Source: Linnemannia hyalina
Taxonomy: Eukaryota > Mortierellomycota > Mortierellomycetes > Mortierellales > Mortierellaceae
Direction of reading: 5' to 3'
DNA length: 64,000 nt
Assembly (NCBI GenBank): GCA_019671135.1
Contig: JAHRHY010000003.1
Coordinates: forward strand, 1,302,001-1,366,000
Both the position numbers and the translations under genes were made by a program. Under the pieces are notes generated by a model. It did no database searches. It worked only from the letters and a program-made list of their open reading frames with translations, and was not told where the DNA came from. Of this stretch, positions 1 to 9,047 are shown piece after piece; the first letter of the stretch is position 1, and each line of letters starts with the position of its first letter.

Positions 1-57
1 GAGAGATTATGTACTCACAACATATTGTTCCGTTCTGTTTTAACTACTACGAAGCAG

Positions 58-3000
58 ATGCACTCCTTTATGCCGGACTGGAAGTTCGTTAACGAGGCTG
101 CAGAACAAATCCTGCACAAGGGATTCAATGGGGATCTATATCAGCGACTAGGAGGAGCTTTTATTGCTTCAGAGGCCCAACCCATAGCACAGGGTCAAGC
201 GTCCGTCGCCTTTCGCTTTATCAACAAGCACCACTTGGCATTAAATTTCAGCACAACACCCTCTCTTGCACGGCTTATCATTGCGATCTTGGATGGCTCA
301 TGGACACCGGAGCGTGGTGAGAGGAACGAGACCGGATTTTTGCTGCTTTGGAGGAACCAGGAAAACACCATCACATATCCCATTCCACCTTCAAGCTTTC
401 TTCTTCGCTACATCTCAGCACTATTGCACATCAACATATTCCTGTTTGACACCGCCGCCCGCCCCATTGTCATCACCCATCCCTATCCAAAAGGAGTTGT
501 CGGTATTCTTCATGATGCATCGTCAATTCTGGGATACTCGGACTACAATGTACTCGGACCAACTCGTACGGAACAGGACGATCTTTTCATTGATCTACGG
601 CCACCAACACCCCCGTCTCTACCACTTCCACCAGGACCTGCCGCGACATTCCGAACCGCCAAACGACCGCGCCAGCAGAGAGAAGGATGCGAGATCGACA
701 GGGTCGCACTAGAGACCATCTACAAGGAGGAATGGTGTGTTTTGATGTCTACTATGTGAATGATTTTTAGACTTTTTTTGTTTGATTTTTACTTCTTTAT
801 TGATTGTCTTTGATATTTTTAAAAAAAAATCATTTAGTGAGGCCCGAGTCAAGAAGGAGGCGGCCGATCAGTGCCGCACGGCGAAGAAGCGTGCAAAGAA
901 GGAGGCAGATCCGAGGGAAGCATTGGAGAAGGCACATATTGATGCAAAGCAAGCGGAAGAGAAACGTGTAAGAACGCCTCGGGGAGTCATGAATGAAACT
1001 GCTCGACGCGTTCGCCAACACTGCGGCATCAACGACGAAGAGGACTTTACCAACCATCACGCATCGATGATGATTACCCACCCTATTGGAGAACCTCAGA
1101 CCGTTACTGGACGAGCTCTAGCGACATATAAGGCGGCCTTATCAAGACACTTTGACATGGCATGGATCGAGGAACAGGACCACATATCTGATCCTACCGT
1201 TGCTTCAGCAAACTCAACAACTATCGCCCTAACCCCATCGGACATCGACGCCCAGGATGACAACAGCATTCGCACTATTACCCTACCTCTTGCGAAGCTG
1301 CTCAGGACGGATCTCCCCACGAAGGATCAAGATTACATCACCAAGAGGCTAAACGACGTACAGGGTGAGGTGTCTGACTTTATGGAATCCGTTGCCATGG
1401 GAGCGTACAAGACAACACTATGGGTATGTTTTCAACATTCTCTGTCTTGGTTGTGGTCGCGCAAGGACATATTTATTTCAAGTTAACTAATATTATATGT
1501 TATCACGACCGTGTTTACTTTCTAGATCTGTCGCGGTGGCATCCAAGGAAGCATACAGCTTAACCTAGCTGACATATTCCCGCCATCCTTTGATATCAGG
1601 GACGACTACTTCAAGGAGAACCCGATCGTGGAAGCGGGAGTCATTACTCCGGAGTGGCAACAGATTGTATCCGATGCTACGGAGTTGAAGCCCCGAGTGA
1701 AGGATCCGGCAACCTTGCTATCCCAGGATTATTTGCAGTACCTTGGAGTTCGGATTCCAGAATTGAGACGTGCGAGGAAGACCCCCAAGACTACCACCCA
1801 CCCCTTGTGGGATACAGTGCTTGAAAGCATCTATAGCGGGAAGCTGGTACCACAAGCCTGGGATGATTCAAGGCATCCTGACTCACCCTCATCCAACCTC
1901 TTCAAGATCATTCCAAGCTTGTCTCAAGCCTCTGGTTCCGGCGCTGTGGATGATGCCTATGCTGCTGCTGATGCCAATGTCGAGGTCGGATACCAGTCAG
2001 AGGACTCATCGAAGGAAAGCCTGGGGGGCTTGACGGCCACACTCATGCGAGAGTACGCTACGAACATCAAGATGATATGGTCTGGAGACATTTACGAGAG
2101 GTTGAGACGGTACGTGGTGCACAATGTTCTCCGACTCAATCTACGACCCCAGAGCGAGGAGAAACACCGCATCCAAAAGCGGAAGCGTGCTATCAAGAAG
2201 GCCGAGGAGATGAAGGAGGCGTCGGCATCGGCAAGCCAAAAGCGTCGAGAGTCCCTGAGGAACTGGAAAAGGCGAAACCAGGACCTATTCAATCAACTTG
2301 ATCACGCATTTGATACTAGTCGAGACGAGGAGCGCATCAACAAGATTTTCGGGCTCATTGACATCCATCAAGAGCGGCGGCCAGGAGTCAAGGAGCAGAA
2401 CAAGTCACGTGGACTCACCCAAAGCGACGACTACGAGACGGACTCGGAGTTTGACGGCTCAGACGACTCAGACGACGATATGGATACTGAGTTGGTTGTT
2501 TCGGGCTCGAGCAAGAGCAGCGATGATGTTTTAATGCCTTGCACTCACACAGCAGATCAAGATTGCGAGATGGGGGTCATGGAGGAGCAGTCAGATGCCG
2601 GTCGCTCTATTAATGCAGAGGCTCAGAGCAGTGGTCCGTCTGAATCTGTGGCACGCTCCTCAACAGGTACCAATAACTAATATCGGACGCTGCTCCTTGC
2701 TGAGTTTGTGGTATTAACTGTTGACTAATATCTCTCACTTCCTTTTTCTCCACCGTAGGACCAAAGGAGCCGACATCAAAGAAGCTCCGAGGTCTAGAAG
2801 CAGTAGCTATCAGGTTGCTGGAATTGCCAGACTCGAACATACCCATCACCGAAGAGACAGTCAAGGCGAAGCTCTACGAGCCTGAGATGTACAGCACGGA
2901 GGAGATTTTGGCCGTCTTGCGGCTAGTGACATTACTGAGACCGTTTACCCCTAAGAAGGCCCACTCAGGACCCCAGTCAACTTCCTATCCAAAGAGCGTC

Positions 3001-5547
3001 TTGACTTTGGGGCCGTTTGTGTATATTGCAAATGCAATCTTGAGATCGGCGGGATACAAGGATTTCACCCGTAGGATTTGCCCAGTTCCTGCTGTTGGGA
3101 ATCGGCATGCTGTGCCGTTGGACGCGTCAGGGGTGTATGACATATTTGGCGGGCGAGCACCAGGACGCTTCGATATCAAGGGCCCAAGTGGTCGAGTAAT
3201 CACCACGTCGACCGTCGCGAGACTGTCTACCGATCATCGCAAATATGTTTTCGGTGGACTTTTCAATATGGCCATCATCGACGATGCCTGCACGAAACAT
3301 GGACTTGAGTTCGCACAAAGGTATGCATACATAAGGTCTTGAATATGACCTCTCCTCATTCATATCTATGACCATCATGAGTCAATTGAATAACAGTTTA
3401 CCGTGCATTGTTTGTAAAATGATAGAATGACGTACGTCGACTTTTACACAGTACGCATCACGGGACGACGGGCGATAACGGGACCAAACCGCCACTTCAC
3501 CAACAGTGCGTACGAAGACAAGAAGAAGAAGCATGTTAAGCCATCAGGTGTAATCAACTGGACGTCGGAACTACTGGAAACCGGGCACACCCCTCAATCT
3601 GCAGCCAAAGCGTCGGAGGAGATCAAGATTGTTCAGGATCGTTTGGTCACAGAGCTACAACCCCTCAAGAAGGGCCTCAAGGCAGCCACGACGGTCAGGA
3701 GAGAAAAGGACCGCACCCTTCGTCACTATGAAGGACACGACCAGAGACACAAAAAGGGAATCTACCAGAACCTACAGGAGGCACGAAAAGTCGTCAACAA
3801 CCTGAAGAAGAAGATCGTTCCTCTCGAGGCTGAGATCCGGGAAAAGAAGCAGCAACGCTACTATTACAACAGGTTGTCCAAGGCGACCGCCCCCCCCAAC
3901 AGCACTATCAGAAGACCCTTCTCCCCTGCCCATCACGACTGTCACAGAGTCTGTCCCAACTGTTCAACATCCTGGGATGCAAGACTTTGTTCAGACAACC
4001 TCCATCAAGCAGCTACTGTTAGAAATTGAAGACAAGGACCGACAACTACCTGTACCAGGCACTGACAGAGGATTGGTGACTATGTCTGAGACTGTCCCCT
4101 CCTTGTGGTCAACTCTGGAATCTTTATCAAACCGATACTATATTCTCCATGGTATGTTTTCTTTTCTGCTTTACTACTGTCGCTCTATCATATCAAGATC
4201 GTGTCTTCATGCAATAATTTCCTACGGCGTTTCATTTGACGTTATAGGTCATCCCGATACTCACCACACCGGCAACGACGACGGGGCTTCAGAGCCGCCC
4301 ACCTCTCACGCTGATGCTGTGGACATGGACATTGATGGCACGGACACCCAGCCCTCTCTGCATTCAGAATCGAAAGCGTCATCTCTTCCAGAACGGACTC
4401 GGAACGCCATAACGATAACTGGCTCTTTATCCCGGAAGGCAACGATCGAGGACATGCGTTTTGCCAAGTCCAACCGCATCACCGCAAAACAGGTCAAAGA
4501 AGTCGGTGGAGTAGGTAGGGCGACTCGAACAAGGGAGCGTTTGCTTCGACAGCCGGAAAATCAGAGGATTTCGGAGCTTCACAAGGAGATAGGAGAAAAC
4601 TCCGTTTTGAAGGCGCAGACTATCAGTGAAGTTGACTCTGCACAGGTGACCCGACGATCAGCTACACAACCCCTTCGCAACTTCGAGGGCAGCAAAAGCT
4701 TAGTGAAACAAACCCACCACAAGGATCTTCAACTGCAGCGAGCATGGCAGACGATCGCAGCCGACGAACGACGGAAAATGCAGGATTTTTCCAGAGGTAA
4801 GTTTATGGATTTAAGAATCGGAGTGCATTGATTCCTTGTTGTTAACTCCAATGGGCATTCAAATAACTAAAACGTACTTTTATTTTTGTTTTCTTGATAG
4901 GAACAGGACAGACCCAACCAGCATCAGTCAACACAGTCGACTCTATCGATGGGTGTTGCAAGTGTGGTAGACACCACCTCCCAATCCGCGTTGGAAGGGC
5001 ACTCACCTATCCACAGGAATGCCCCAGAGATGCGTTGCCCATCATCCCTATCATGTTCGTCGGGACGGCAGGAATCGGAACCGGGAGTCGCATTGGCGGT
5101 CATCTAAAGTACGGCGGAAAAAAGGTCGTTGAGCAACATGCCCTCTCCGTCCCTGTACTGATGACCGATGAAAACATGACAAGCAAAGTCTGTCCGTTTT
5201 GTTTTGCGATTCTACGCCTCGTCAAGGAACTGAGACTTGTCAACGGAGTCGAGAAGCTGGTCACAATCAACGGTGCGGTTCAGTGCGAAAACCCCAACTG
5301 TGAGAGTGTCCGCGCCGGTTATGCACGTCGAGGCAGGGACAGCAATGCATGTGTCAACATTGCACTTGCGGGATTCACGACAATCATGAGCGACAACAGA
5401 CAGCCACTTCCTCCCTACAGGAGATCAACGCGTCCAGAGGGCGCCACCCCTTCAGAACCCCAGTCTCTCGCTACTGGAACACAACAAAACATCGAGCACT
5501 TCGACAACGGACCCATTGACAACAATGGCTTCCCGCGACGCTGCTGA
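58..5547 (+). CDS. Fanzor-type (TnpB-related) RNA-guided endonuclease, seven exons, one apparent frameshift
   Basis: Exons 58-734, 838-1423, 1526-2666, 2759-3320, 3426-4151, 4248-4796 and 4901-5547 join in frame, apart from a one-base excess in exon 5 at a C8 run. Allowing for it, the product is about 1628 residues. Seen: a basic, NLS-like helical stretch (about 637-672), an acidic linker (about 723-750), a WED-like block ending FYTVRITG, RuvC-I GTDRGLVTM (Asp ~1202), DENMTSKVCPFC (Glu ~1504, Cys ~1511 and ~1514), second zinc-finger half CENPNC (~1542-1547), and RuvC-III GRDSNA (Asp ~1560). Family knowledge: Fanzors are nuclear omega-RNA-guided DNA nucleases, and the Glu in DExxTS serves as the alternative RuvC-II acid. 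The first ATG is at 58, but the frame is open to base 1, so the gene may start upstream. The protein is long for the family, with an unexplained N-terminal extension. Confidence 0.82.
3890..3897 (+). other. C8 homopolymer at the frame break inside the Fanzor gene
   Basis: Upstream of this run the coding frame reads through ...RLSKATAPP and would stop at about 4029. Downstream, the frame carrying VTESVPTV, RuvC-I and exon 6 lies one base later. Removing one C joins both frames with no stop. GT-AG pairs nearby that I tried (30, 39, 42, 75 and 77 bases) do not give the required length of 3n+1. The break may be a real mutation, a homopolymer sequencing error, or slippage during expression. Confidence 0.75.
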
Positions 5548-7012
5548 TGAGCTAGCCTAGCTAGATTTATGTAAGTTCCCATCTGCTTGTTTCCCATTTA
5601 TGATTTGCTACGGAGTCTGCTATCAGTAAACCTCAGATTAACCAAAACATCCTAAATTTTGGATGAAATAGACAATAAAAAACCTAAGCCCGTCGATTTC
5701 TCTCTTCGGTGCAATTGCCTTCACCAGGGTAGAGACAGCGCCTTTTTCCCTTCTGCGAGCAACCTTATGAGAATTTGCTTGGCTATCAATTTCTTAAGGG
5801 TGAGTACTTCCCTTTCTCTTCCTTCTCTTTCACTGTCTCAATTCTCTCACAATCTCTCTGGGTTTTCACCTCCTTCTTACCCTCACTTTTCACTTTTGAT
5901 CAAAGGAGAAAAAAACGACGTTGCCTCGAAGTATCCAGAAGTGGCAGCGAAAAACTGCTTACCTCGTTTATTTGTCCGAGAGGGATATGAGGACCTTGTT
6001 GTTTGTCGTCTTGGGCCAACAACGGCTTTCAATGTGTGTGTGCGGTGGCGAAGGAGTATTATCTTATCTTCTCTTTCTTTTTTCACTTGTGGACAAGGGC
6101 GAAGTACATCTTAATGAGCTCCAGGCTTGTACAGGATTGTGAGAGATAAACAGCTTTTAAAAACATATAGAGCGCTAGGTTTTACTGAGTTGTGGGGAAC
6201 ACACAACATTCAAACACAAGCAGAGCGCCTGGATCTTTACATAAAAATGATTAAAGGCGGATGGAGCTGGCAAAGGAGAAAAAAAATGGGGTGAAAGAAG
6301 AGGGCAAAGAGTATATCCATCGAAAACCCTTAGAAAAGGAACGCAAGGAAGGGAGCATAGAAACAGAGAAGTATATTTTAGTTAGCAGGTCATGCTATTC
6401 ATCACCATTCATCTTCCTTTGTTCATTGCTACAGCGCTGTATGGCGAGAGAGGTCCTGCCCATGGTTGTGTCGTGGTTTGAATGATATTGATTCATAGCA
6501 AGAGGAAAAAGAAGTGGACAAGCATCGATCATCTTGAACAACATCCTGTTCTTTTTTTTTTTGAACGCGTCGTGATCAATAAAGGAACACGACGTGTTGC
6601 AGAGGTCCTTTTTCTTCCTCTTCGTACCAATTTCACTCTTACATCCTTTATGTACATCCTGGCGAAGCCGCGAGACCGTTAGTGGATAAAGCAGAAAGAA
6701 GAGAAGGGTAAAAGGCGATAAAGGGGTCGATGATCGAAGGGGTTGAAACTTGAAAGAAATGTTGCTTGACCAGTGATCATTAATTAGTCACGTGATCTAA
6801 CTCTGCCATTGTCCGCACTGTTTCTCTTTACCCGCCAAGTCAAGGGTCTCTTTTGTTGTTCACCCAAACGTTCATCGTCTTTCACTTCTCTCATTCAAAC
6901 GCCACCAACTACAACACCTCATCCGTCTTTCTCTTTCTCTCCTCTCACACCTCTGAGCGCCACCAAAACACACACTTTCTCTCTCCAGCCAACAAGAACA
7001 ACTTTGACTCAT
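5548..7012. other. Spacer between Fanzor and SERINC genes
   Basis: No convincing coding region. It starts with a small CTAG-rich palindromic patch (about 5550-5565) and a short hairpin, CATCC/GGATG, at 5648-5665, followed by AATAAA at about 5674. The Fanzor guide RNA, if encoded in cis, could lie here, but I cannot recognise one. The right part (6800-7010) is the CT-rich leader of the SERINC gene. Confidence 0.5.
6788..6795. promoter_or_regulatory. TCACGTGA palindrome (bHLH/Cbf1-type E-box) upstream of SERINC
   Basis: A perfect 8-base palindrome containing CACGTG sits about 220 bases before the SERINC start codon, ahead of a pyrimidine-rich leader. Such sites bind bHLH factors of the Cbf1/USF type in fungi. 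The same core occurs upstream of two other genes in this window. Confidence 0.4.
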
Positions 7013-9047
7013 ATGGGAGCAGTCTTGAGTTGTGTCGCCTTGCCTGCCCTTGGCAGTCTGGGCTCCATCCTCGCCTCATGCTTCTCCGCCGCTGCTTGTT
7101 CCCTTGCATGCCGCTCATGCAACTGCAACAACTCCATCGCCACCCGCGTCGGATACGCCGTAAGTTCTCTCTTCAGCTACGTAGCAAACGACAAAACATA
7201 CATACACTCATATATATAGACGCTGTTGTGTATCTTTATTGCCTACTGACGCTTCCTTCGTTTTTTTCACTATAGTTGATAATGCTTGTCAACTCATTGG
7301 TAGGTTATGCCTCGTCGTCCTCCTACTCAGCCCGCACCATTATTACATCTCGCTTATTGCTGCTTGACTTGCCCCTTCCAAGAACCACACTAACTTTGGT
7401 GTCCTCTTCGAATGTAGTTCGCATGGATCCTGCTTTCAGAATGGGCTTCAAAACAACTCGAGGGTATCACGCACGGATACCTAAAACTCAACTGCGAGGA
7501 CAACTCCTGCTATGGAGCCTTTGGGGTATGTGCACCCTGGTTTCATGCTTGCCTTTAGGACCATGACGAGGGACTTGGAAAGCAAGAAGGGACATCTTAC
7601 AACGTGCTTTGGCTCAATACAAATAATAGGTTCAGCGTGTTGGATTTGCTTTGGCCCTCTTTCACTTTATTCTTGGCGCACTGTTGGTTGGCGTGCATGA
7701 TTCACGGTCAAAAAGGGCGGCAGTTCAGAATGGGTAAGTACAAACCAAAGAGCAATGCAATCAATAGACGACGACGACAAAAAACTTAAGGGGGTGGATA
7801 TAGGCTTGCATCCCACACTTGCCCTACATTCTGATTTTTACTTGCGATACACCATCTTATTGACCCATCATATATTCTTCGTGTGCCTTTAGATGGTGGG
7901 GTCCTAAAGTATTAGTCTGGATGGCACTGGTGGTGGCCTCGTTCTTTATTCCTACAGGGTTCTTTGTGTTCTACGGCAACTATGTGGCACTGATTGGCGC
8001 AGGAATCTTTATCCTCTTTGGACTCATCCTCCTCGTCGACTTTGCCCACACATGGAGCGAGACCTGTATGGACAAATGGGAACAGAGCGACACCAACAAG
8101 TGGCAGTTCATTCTTGTTGGATCAACGTTGATCATGTACTTGGGAGCCATCGTCTTGACAGGGGTGATGTACGGGTATTTCGCCAGCGACGGTTGCAACA
8201 TGAACATCTTCTGGATCACCTTTAACCTTGTCTTGGGAGTGGCTGTGACAGTGATTGGGGTCTTGCCGGCTGTTCAGGAGGCGAACCCTCGATCTGGACT
8301 CGCACAGTCGTCGATGGTGGTCATCTATTGTGCGTACTTGGTCCTCAGCGCGGTTGCAAATGAGCCGGATGAGGGTACTAATTGTAACCCATTGAGCAAG
8401 GCCAGGGGCACCAGGACGACCTCAGTTCTTATGGGAGCTATATTTACTTTCCTTGCCGTTGCTTACTCAACCTCCAGGGCTGCGACTCAGGGAGGAAAAG
8501 CCATGATCAACAGTGGCGACTACGCGCCTCTCAACTCGGACTCTGCAGTACCCCTCGTCAACAACCAGCCTACTGGATCCTCCATGCGTCGCTCCGATGC
8601 CCTGCTCGCCGCCGTCGAGAGCGGGTAAGAGTCTCTCCTCCATGACCTTTTTTTTTTTTCTTACCTTTCTTAAACCCCATTTGTTCTCATTAATACTGAC
8701 TTGTATAACGTTTATGACATAGTGCGCTTCCTGTGTCTGCGTTGGATGATGCAGATGACGATGATGACGAGGAGTACGACTCCAAGGACGACGAAAAATT
8801 TGGATGCCAGTACAACTATACATTCTTCCATCTCGTCTTCGCCCTTGCAGCGATGTACATCTCGATGGTCCTCACCAACTGGAACAACTTCCAAGAAGTT
8901 GACGGCAGAAGCGACAATCTCATTCTGATTGGTCAGAGTTGGCCTGCAGTCTGGGTCAAGGTCATCTCGTCTTGGATCTGCTATGGCCTCTATGCATTCT
9001 CCCTCTTGGCCCCTGTTATCTTCCCTGACCGGTTCTTGGACTATTAG
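7013..9047 (+). CDS. TMS1: SERINC/TMS1 family multi-pass membrane protein
   Basis: Exons 7013-7159, 7276-7299, 7418-7525, 7630-7733, 7893-8624 and 8723-9047 close in frame to 479 residues, the usual size for the family. The start MGAVLSC, the Cys-rich N-terminus (ACSLACRSCNCN), the segment GWWGPKVLVW, the later hydrophobic helices and the C-terminal block YNYTFFHLVFALAAMYISM are SERINC hallmarks. The family consists of 10-11-helix membrane proteins first linked to serine incorporation into membrane lipids; scramblase-like activity has been described for animal members. Exon 2 is a 24-base micro-exon encoding LIMLVNSL, exactly the piece needed between RVGYA and FAWILL. A poly-Asp loop lies before the last helices. 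AATAAA follows the stop at about 9085. Confidence 0.93.

Follow-up and report, generated by a model that had tools for sequence, protein, structure and literature searches.

A giant Fanzor1-type protein, probably an RNA-guided nuclease, in a Crypton-bearing mobile element of Linnemannia hyalina

Is a fungal gene with a predicted product of about 1,630 residues, far larger than typical Fanzors, a member of this group of RNA-guided nucleases, and is it still mobile and still made? The gene in question lies at positions 58-5547 of the forward strand of a 64,000-nucleotide stretch of Linnemannia hyalina DNA (the window; C23:1302001-1366000 of the 51.5-Mb assembly), where a first-pass annotation, made from the letters alone, had read an intron-rich Fanzor gene. 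Coordinates are window positions, negative ones lying upstream of the window, and other copies bear labels of the same kind as C23. We consider it likely that the locus encodes a giant Fanzor1-type protein, probably an RNA-guided DNA endonuclease, that belongs to a recently active mobile element; RNA guidance is presumed by analogy with characterised Fanzors, and a role for the N-terminus of about 1,100 residues is likewise presumptive. What is new here is a Fanzor1-type nuclease of exceptional size within a composite in which a Crypton lies inside a Fanzor element.

Nuclease core and family membership

The gene has seven exons, and GT-AG boundaries were found for all six of the introns first annotated, each 92-105 nt long (Table 1). 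The motifs GTDRGLVTM, DENMTSKVCPFC, CENPNC and GRDSNA, which had been assigned to a Fanzor/TnpB nuclease core, occur in this order within exons 5 and 7, and the putative catalytic residues in the product of the C2 copy are D1202, E1504 and D1560.

Family profiles were made from alignments A1 (14 rows; in-genome copies with stops (L019, L031, L034, L035), fragments (L033, L036, L038) and near-duplicates omitted), A3 (8 long rows), A4 (4 rows) and A5 (29 of 47 homologous proteins; P0001, P0004, P0008, P0010, P0011, P0013, P0028, P0037 and P0040-P0049 omitted, among them a model without the zinc ribbon, P0013, and two without RuvC-I, P0011 and P0010, the latter a 1,443-residue protein that fits the window copy best of all database proteins). 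Searched against PDB sequences, A1 gave six matches at E<=10, with Fanzor1 of S. punctatus (SpuFz1) first (E=0.0023), Fanzor1 of P. parasitica (PpFz1) fourth (0.27) and two Cas12f entries at 2.2 each, while A5 placed SpuFz1 first (0.0043) and PpFz1 second (0.078), followed by an unrelated fusion (3.1). No unrelated zinc-ribbon family ranked ahead of Fanzor1 in this profile check, which bears out the original assignment of the core. The RuvC-II to RuvC-III part accounts for these modest E-values, and the case for RuvC-I is made by conservation and motif order. In the A1 alignment, SpuFz1 chain residues 935 and 1000 fall on the Glu and Asp of the family, and a single offset of 394 converts them to E541 and D606, which are catalytic residues according to PMC11423790. 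The displaced Glu in the DExxTS position, proposed at the outset as the RuvC-II acid, therefore aligns with SpuFz1 E541.

Conservation among the A5 rows was nearly complete at each site. The RuvC-I Asp (and x-Gly) occurs in all 14 rows that cover it (15 do not), the RuvC-II Glu ahead of the first zinc Cys (ExxxxxxC) in 27 of 27 (two not covering; it is also invariant in A1), each of the four zinc-ribbon Cys in 27 of 27, and the RuvC-III D and R in 26 and 25 of 27, respectively. RuvC-I and RuvC-III were also examined for belonging to separate genes, and they lie in one predicted protein in all 14 relatives that cover RuvC-I. Three divergent in-genome copies (C2, C4 and C23) have ATDPGMAKM in place of GTDRGLVTM; an in-genome pattern search recognised RuvC-I in 7 of 22 loci, with DPG in three, and in none of the rest. 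When aligned by hhalign to a profile built from five ordinary PF07282 proteins of the genome, A1 scored E=1.7e-5 and A5 E=2e-6 (values for a single comparison), and none of 60 column-shuffled versions reached either score. Membership of the Fanzor family is well supported by these sequence comparisons.

Several results weigh against this assignment. Two unrelated RCC1-repeat entries (0.06 and 0.075) stood above PpFz1 in the A1 search, A4 found SpuFz1 at E=0.28 only, plus one unrelated entry, and A3 returned five unrelated matches and no Fanzor. No window piece passed a Pfam or NCBIfam cut-off, no domain reached it in the N-terminal part, PF07282 scored exon 7 at 12.0 bits (cut-off 26.3), and the gene is absent from the 91 matches of a genome-wide PF07282 search. 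One zinc Cys is missing from each of the divergent in-genome A1 rows L029, L030 and L032, and the RuvC-I Asp of the C2 product stands 304 residues from [TS][TS], beyond the D-X(125,275)-[TS][TS] spacing that PMC3627910 gives for Fanzor1/TnpB. The same spacing is 246 in M. alpina P0012, within the published range, and PF07282 matches 8 of the 14 A1 members at E<=1 (best 1.4e-4); its cut-off is a profile threshold rather than a structural criterion. An unrelated zinc-ribbon protein with Fanzor-like motifs acquired by convergence would fit the sub-threshold Pfam score and a PDB signal that is weak with A4 and absent with A3, but it is highly improbable in the face of the ATDPG copies, the A1 and A5 matches to SpuFz1, the conserved residues and the hhalign result. 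Because the C-terminus of this Fanzor1-type protein scores under the usual Pfam threshold, its family could go unnoticed in profile surveys. As a separate observation, the 91 PF07282 matches lie outside this gene; the eight that were fetched (L001-L008) look like other Fanzor-like proteins, and identical scores among the 91 suggest several multi-copy families.

Two protein searches, in which the best 7,999 and 8,000 candidates by common words were scored within length limits and gene models were automatic, outlined the distribution of the family. Region 860-1600 of the C2 product found eight proteins of 1,212-1,551 aa with the names Linnemannia, Mortierella, Benniella and Modicella, and A4 found 35, of which the 17 named to species all belong to Mortierella, Benniella, Entomortierella, Podila or Modicella. 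The named relatives are thus Mortierellaceae, the family in which we take Benniella, Modicella, Podila and Entomortierella to be placed. One IMG/VR scan for a virus-borne copy gave five pattern matches, none confirmed, and no paper pairing 'Fanzor' with 'Mortierella' was found in a library of open-access main texts, although supplements and closed journals may hold the family. Most Fanzor1 proteins have 600-700 aa according to PMC11423790 and some reach ~800 aa according to PMC10711439; the C2 product is about twice the latter figure.

A mobile element with a nested Crypton

Multiple copies inside a mobile element rule out a lone gene in the window. The window copy of this element begins with TATAGTGG (C23:1297473, window -4527) and ends with GACA (window 5674), a total of 10,202 bp, and so extends 4.5 kb past the upstream edge of the window. 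The comparison of copies covered their ends, exons 1, 4 and 7 and the stretches that were fetched. The exon 7 protein is 100% identical in eight places and 96% and 94% identical in two more, and seven other composite records have the same left and right ends and match at 98.9-99.9% over 2.8 kb upstream of exon 1. Ten copies have nine distinct left flanks (C7 = C12), all nine with AT[AG][AC] just before TATAG and eight with AAT[AG][AC]. GACA is followed by ATAA in each of the eight composite records (their right flanks number seven distinct ones, as C16 = C23a, the window copy), by AGAA in C49b and, in C20, by a Crypton end. Since C7 and C16 lie near contig ends and each has one flank in common with another copy, the flanking sequences point to at least six independent insertions. 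The stretches C16:3063-6704 and C7:3100-4100, with one flank identical to the C23 and C12 copies, are probable assembly duplicates or chimeras. No paralogous empty site of the outer element was found for the two composite records checked (C49a and C1), and no terminal inverted repeats of the Fanzor element were seen by eye. Judged from its near-identical copies, the element is recently active and has undergone very recent transposition; the long residence in a eukaryotic genome that had been read from the introns, the basic stretch and the acidic linker is therefore an incomplete account.

The 5' leader of the composite reads ACTAC-ATT-[4,053 bp]-ATT-CCACAC, the bracketed part being a Crypton flanked by a direct repeat of ATT and without inverted repeats (by eye). 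The C20 and C49b Fanzor elements lack the Crypton (the former measures 6,190 bp), and both have ACTACATTCCACAC at this point, an empty site at two loci, while Cryptons of ~4.07 kb without Fanzor on C8 and C10 align at 99% with the inner part of the composite. These empty sites and standalone Cryptons show that a Crypton was inserted into the 5' leader of a Fanzor element, after which the composite spread. The converse, a Fanzor carried as original Crypton cargo, was ruled out, since the Crypton is a nested insertion with empty sites.

The recombinase of the C8 copy matches NDC10_II (2.5e-20) and GCR1_C (2e-8), presumably the domain signature of Cryptons, and pieces of the nested copy gave matches to both as well, one of those to NDC10_II below the cut-off. 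The recombinase frame of ~960 codons is unbroken in four of the eight composite records (C23a, C16, C7 and C12) and split in C1, C2, C23b and C49a. Nine further recombinase copies (C8:372892, C9, C10, C13, C20 and C47), two of which (C8 and C10) were fetched, have open 959-codon frames that are 99% like the nested one, and these Cryptons have apparently been active recently. A search for a recombinase in the Fanzor part itself, beyond the nested Crypton, gave none in the fetched parts of the C20 and C49b copies. On C20, a Crypton end lies exactly at the right end of the Fanzor element, which suggests that the Crypton recombinase may recognise that end.

Reading frame and gene model

The frame of the window copy is lost at a run of C residues that the first-pass annotation had overlooked; the ~1,100 N-terminal residues thus lie in one frame and RuvC-I to RuvC-III in another, a point against the nuclease reading. 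The run is shorter in seven of nine other copies (C1, C2, C7, C12, C23b, C49a and C49b); C16 has the long run of the window, and C20 was not read at this point because the search string is absent from the locus. Over 3,642 bp, of which 1,366 bp are right flank, the C16 record matches the window at 100%; as it also lies near a contig end, the two records are probably one DNA assembled twice. An intron at the C run was ruled out, since the C2 copy, the sole one read as protein in full, reads straight through and is open throughout its 1,628 codons. The predicted product of about 1,630 residues is therefore found in the C2 copy, whereas the window copy loses its frame. The genome of L. hyalina SCG-10 (51.6 Mb) was assembled from PacBio data with HGAP4, and PMC8444964 does not mention short-read polishing, so an assembly error is possible, with mutation as the alternative.

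These defects raise the possibility that the gene is a decaying passenger: the window copy, and perhaps most of the copies, would have ceased to yield a nuclease, and the Crypton recombinase alone would have spread the element. The frame break, single stops in exon 4 of C7 and exon 1 of C49a, and the fact that the eight near-identical records are those with the nested Crypton would all fit this explanation. We regard it as decidedly unlikely, because an open copy exists (C2), relatives in other genera keep the residues and the ratio of nonsynonymous to synonymous substitution rates (dN/dS) in parts of exons 6-7 is below 1, albeit with few changes (C2 and C20, 0.22, 12 changes; C2 and C49b, 0.41, 28 changes).

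The start of the gene is probably upstream of the window, where a candidate first exon (MSDNSPG) occurs at -92 to -72; a seventh intron would then end at 57. In this presumed first intron, a GA repeat has 17 units in the window copy, 43 in C20 and 10 in C49b. Sequence around the exon 2/3 junction is kept in the L. gamsii relative P0009, and the basic, NLS-like (nuclear localisation signal-like) stretch and acidic linker of the first-pass annotation were both located in exon 3. The last ~23 residues of the composite copies (5480-5547), beyond RuvC-III, are in another frame than those of C20, C49b and relatives from other species.

Table 1. Features of the giant Fanzor gene and its element, in window positions
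Feature	Position	Strand or location	Basis or remark
Nested Crypton	-4261 to -209	in 5' leader of Fanzor element	copy comparison
Upstream intron, probable end	1..57	+	copy comparison
Exon 1, in-window part	58..734	+	gene model and copies; further short first exon upstream likely
Exon 2	838..1423	+	gene model
Exon 3, with basic stretch and acidic linker	1526..2666	+	gene model
Exon 4	2759..3320	+	gene model and copies
Exon 5, ending just past RuvC-I	3426..4151	+	gene model
C run, frame lost in window copy	3890..3897	+	eight C; intact copies elsewhere in genome
RuvC-I, GTDRGLVTM	4058..4084	+	Asp codon 4064-4066
Exon 6, RuvC-I/RuvC-II insertion	4248..4796	+	gene model
Exon 7, with RuvC-II, zinc ribbon and RuvC-III	4901..5547	+	gene model and copies
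DENMTSKVCPFC, RuvC-II Glu (5170-5172) and first Cys pair	5167..5202	+	translation, profile alignments
CENPNC, second Cys pair of zinc ribbon	5284..5301	+	translation, relatives' alignment
RuvC-III Arg-Asp (RD of GRDSNA)	5335..5340	+	translation, profile alignments
3' non-coding tail of element	5548..5674	+	copies; presumed place of guide RNA scaffold, fold not significant
Imperfect hairpin CATCC...GGATG just inside right end	5648..5665	+	sequence
Element right end, GACA then ATAA	5671..5678	+	comparison of copies

Possible mode of action and related systems

By analogy with characterised Fanzors, a guide RNA would be made from the 3' tail (about 5400-5678) and would extend beyond GACAATAA into each copy's own flank. 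The guided protein would cut beside a short motif matching the insertion site, (A)ATR(A/C), for which the left flank would provide the adjacent motif, and cutting of empty or sister sites would favour retention or copying of the element. Movement itself would be due to a tyrosine recombinase, possibly that of the nested Crypton acting on the outer ends. Both ends of the Fanzor element (left ATR(A/C)-TATAG, right GACA-ATAA) look like recombinase core sites and resemble those of the Crypton (right end CA-ATW). A further, doubtful extension is that nesting made a self-moving unit, a eukaryotic counterpart of TnpA/TnpB, in which the recombinase moves the element and the giant guided nuclease, with its new module of ~1,100 residues, cuts empty sites into which the element is copied back.

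Folding of the tail adds a point on the other side, as the predicted folds of its 137-nt and 278-nt versions do not surpass those of shuffled sequences (z -0.89 and -1.30). Rfam gave no matches in the window. A tail without a significant fold would suit a protein of TnpB/Fanzor descent that has kept RuvC and given up RNA guidance, its enlarged N-terminus, about three times that of SpuFz1 and with no recognised domain, having replaced the guide and the DNA recognition lobe; such a protein could be an RNA-independent nuclease, a transposition accessory or a DNA-binding regulator of the element. We think this unlikely, since the catalytic residues are conserved among relatives and the guide RNAs of the three solved Fanzors in PMC11423790 vary in length between 75 and 150 nt, so that weak folding is poor evidence against a guide.

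The proposed RNA-guided nuclease is most readily compared with SpuFz1 (PDB 8gkh and others), its best solved match, which has the RuvC-II Glu in DExxTS, a zinc ribbon with a CxNPxC second pair and the RuvC-III Asp. In PMC3627910, however, SpuFz1 has 633 aa (1,628 here), and its element measures 2.1 kb and is bounded by terminal inverted repeats of 33 bp. The RuvC-I Asp of SpuFz1 is residue 383 rather than 1202 as here. PpFz1 (PDB 9cf0), the other Fanzor1 among the PDB matches, is shorter and has a RuvC insertion, possibly not homologous to the one here; its tested target-adjacent motif, reported as ATN in PMC11423790, is like the ATR(A/C) beside the left end. As in the present element, a Fanzor1 and a Crypton recombinase gene occur together in MCi-2A, but PMC3627910 describes that recombinase as partial and leaves the class open, whereas here a ~960-codon frame is open in a nested Crypton. 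Cryptons themselves share the NDC10_II and GCR1_C recombinase and the short direct repeat at insertion; they differ from the Fanzor part outside the nested Crypton, which gave no recombinase in the fetched parts of C20 and C49b. Near-identical copies, copies with and without the Crypton and lone Cryptons form a natural series in one culturable soil fungus, which serves the question of what Fanzors do for their transposons.

A second family of elements in the genome also carries a divergent giant Fanzor, 39-40% identical to the window gene in exon 7. Two of these elements, C4:1084033-1092734 (L080) and C23:1413972-1422654 (L086), are 97.7% identical, and a third copy on C2 matches at 97.2% over 2.26 kb only. 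On the other strand they encode an open reading frame with a DDE_Tnp_4 domain (8.6e-25), probably a transposase of what we take to be the Harbinger type; the C4 element yielded no relative of the Crypton recombinase. Given this family and the Crypton composite, the giant Fanzors of L. hyalina lie with two kinds of transposase, and Bao and Jurka (PMC3627910) have reported that several transposon superfamilies captured Fanzor1. Within the window itself, part of a Serinc (serine incorporator) gene occurs at 7864-8628 (Pfam 2.4e-84), ~2.2 kb past the right end of the composite element.

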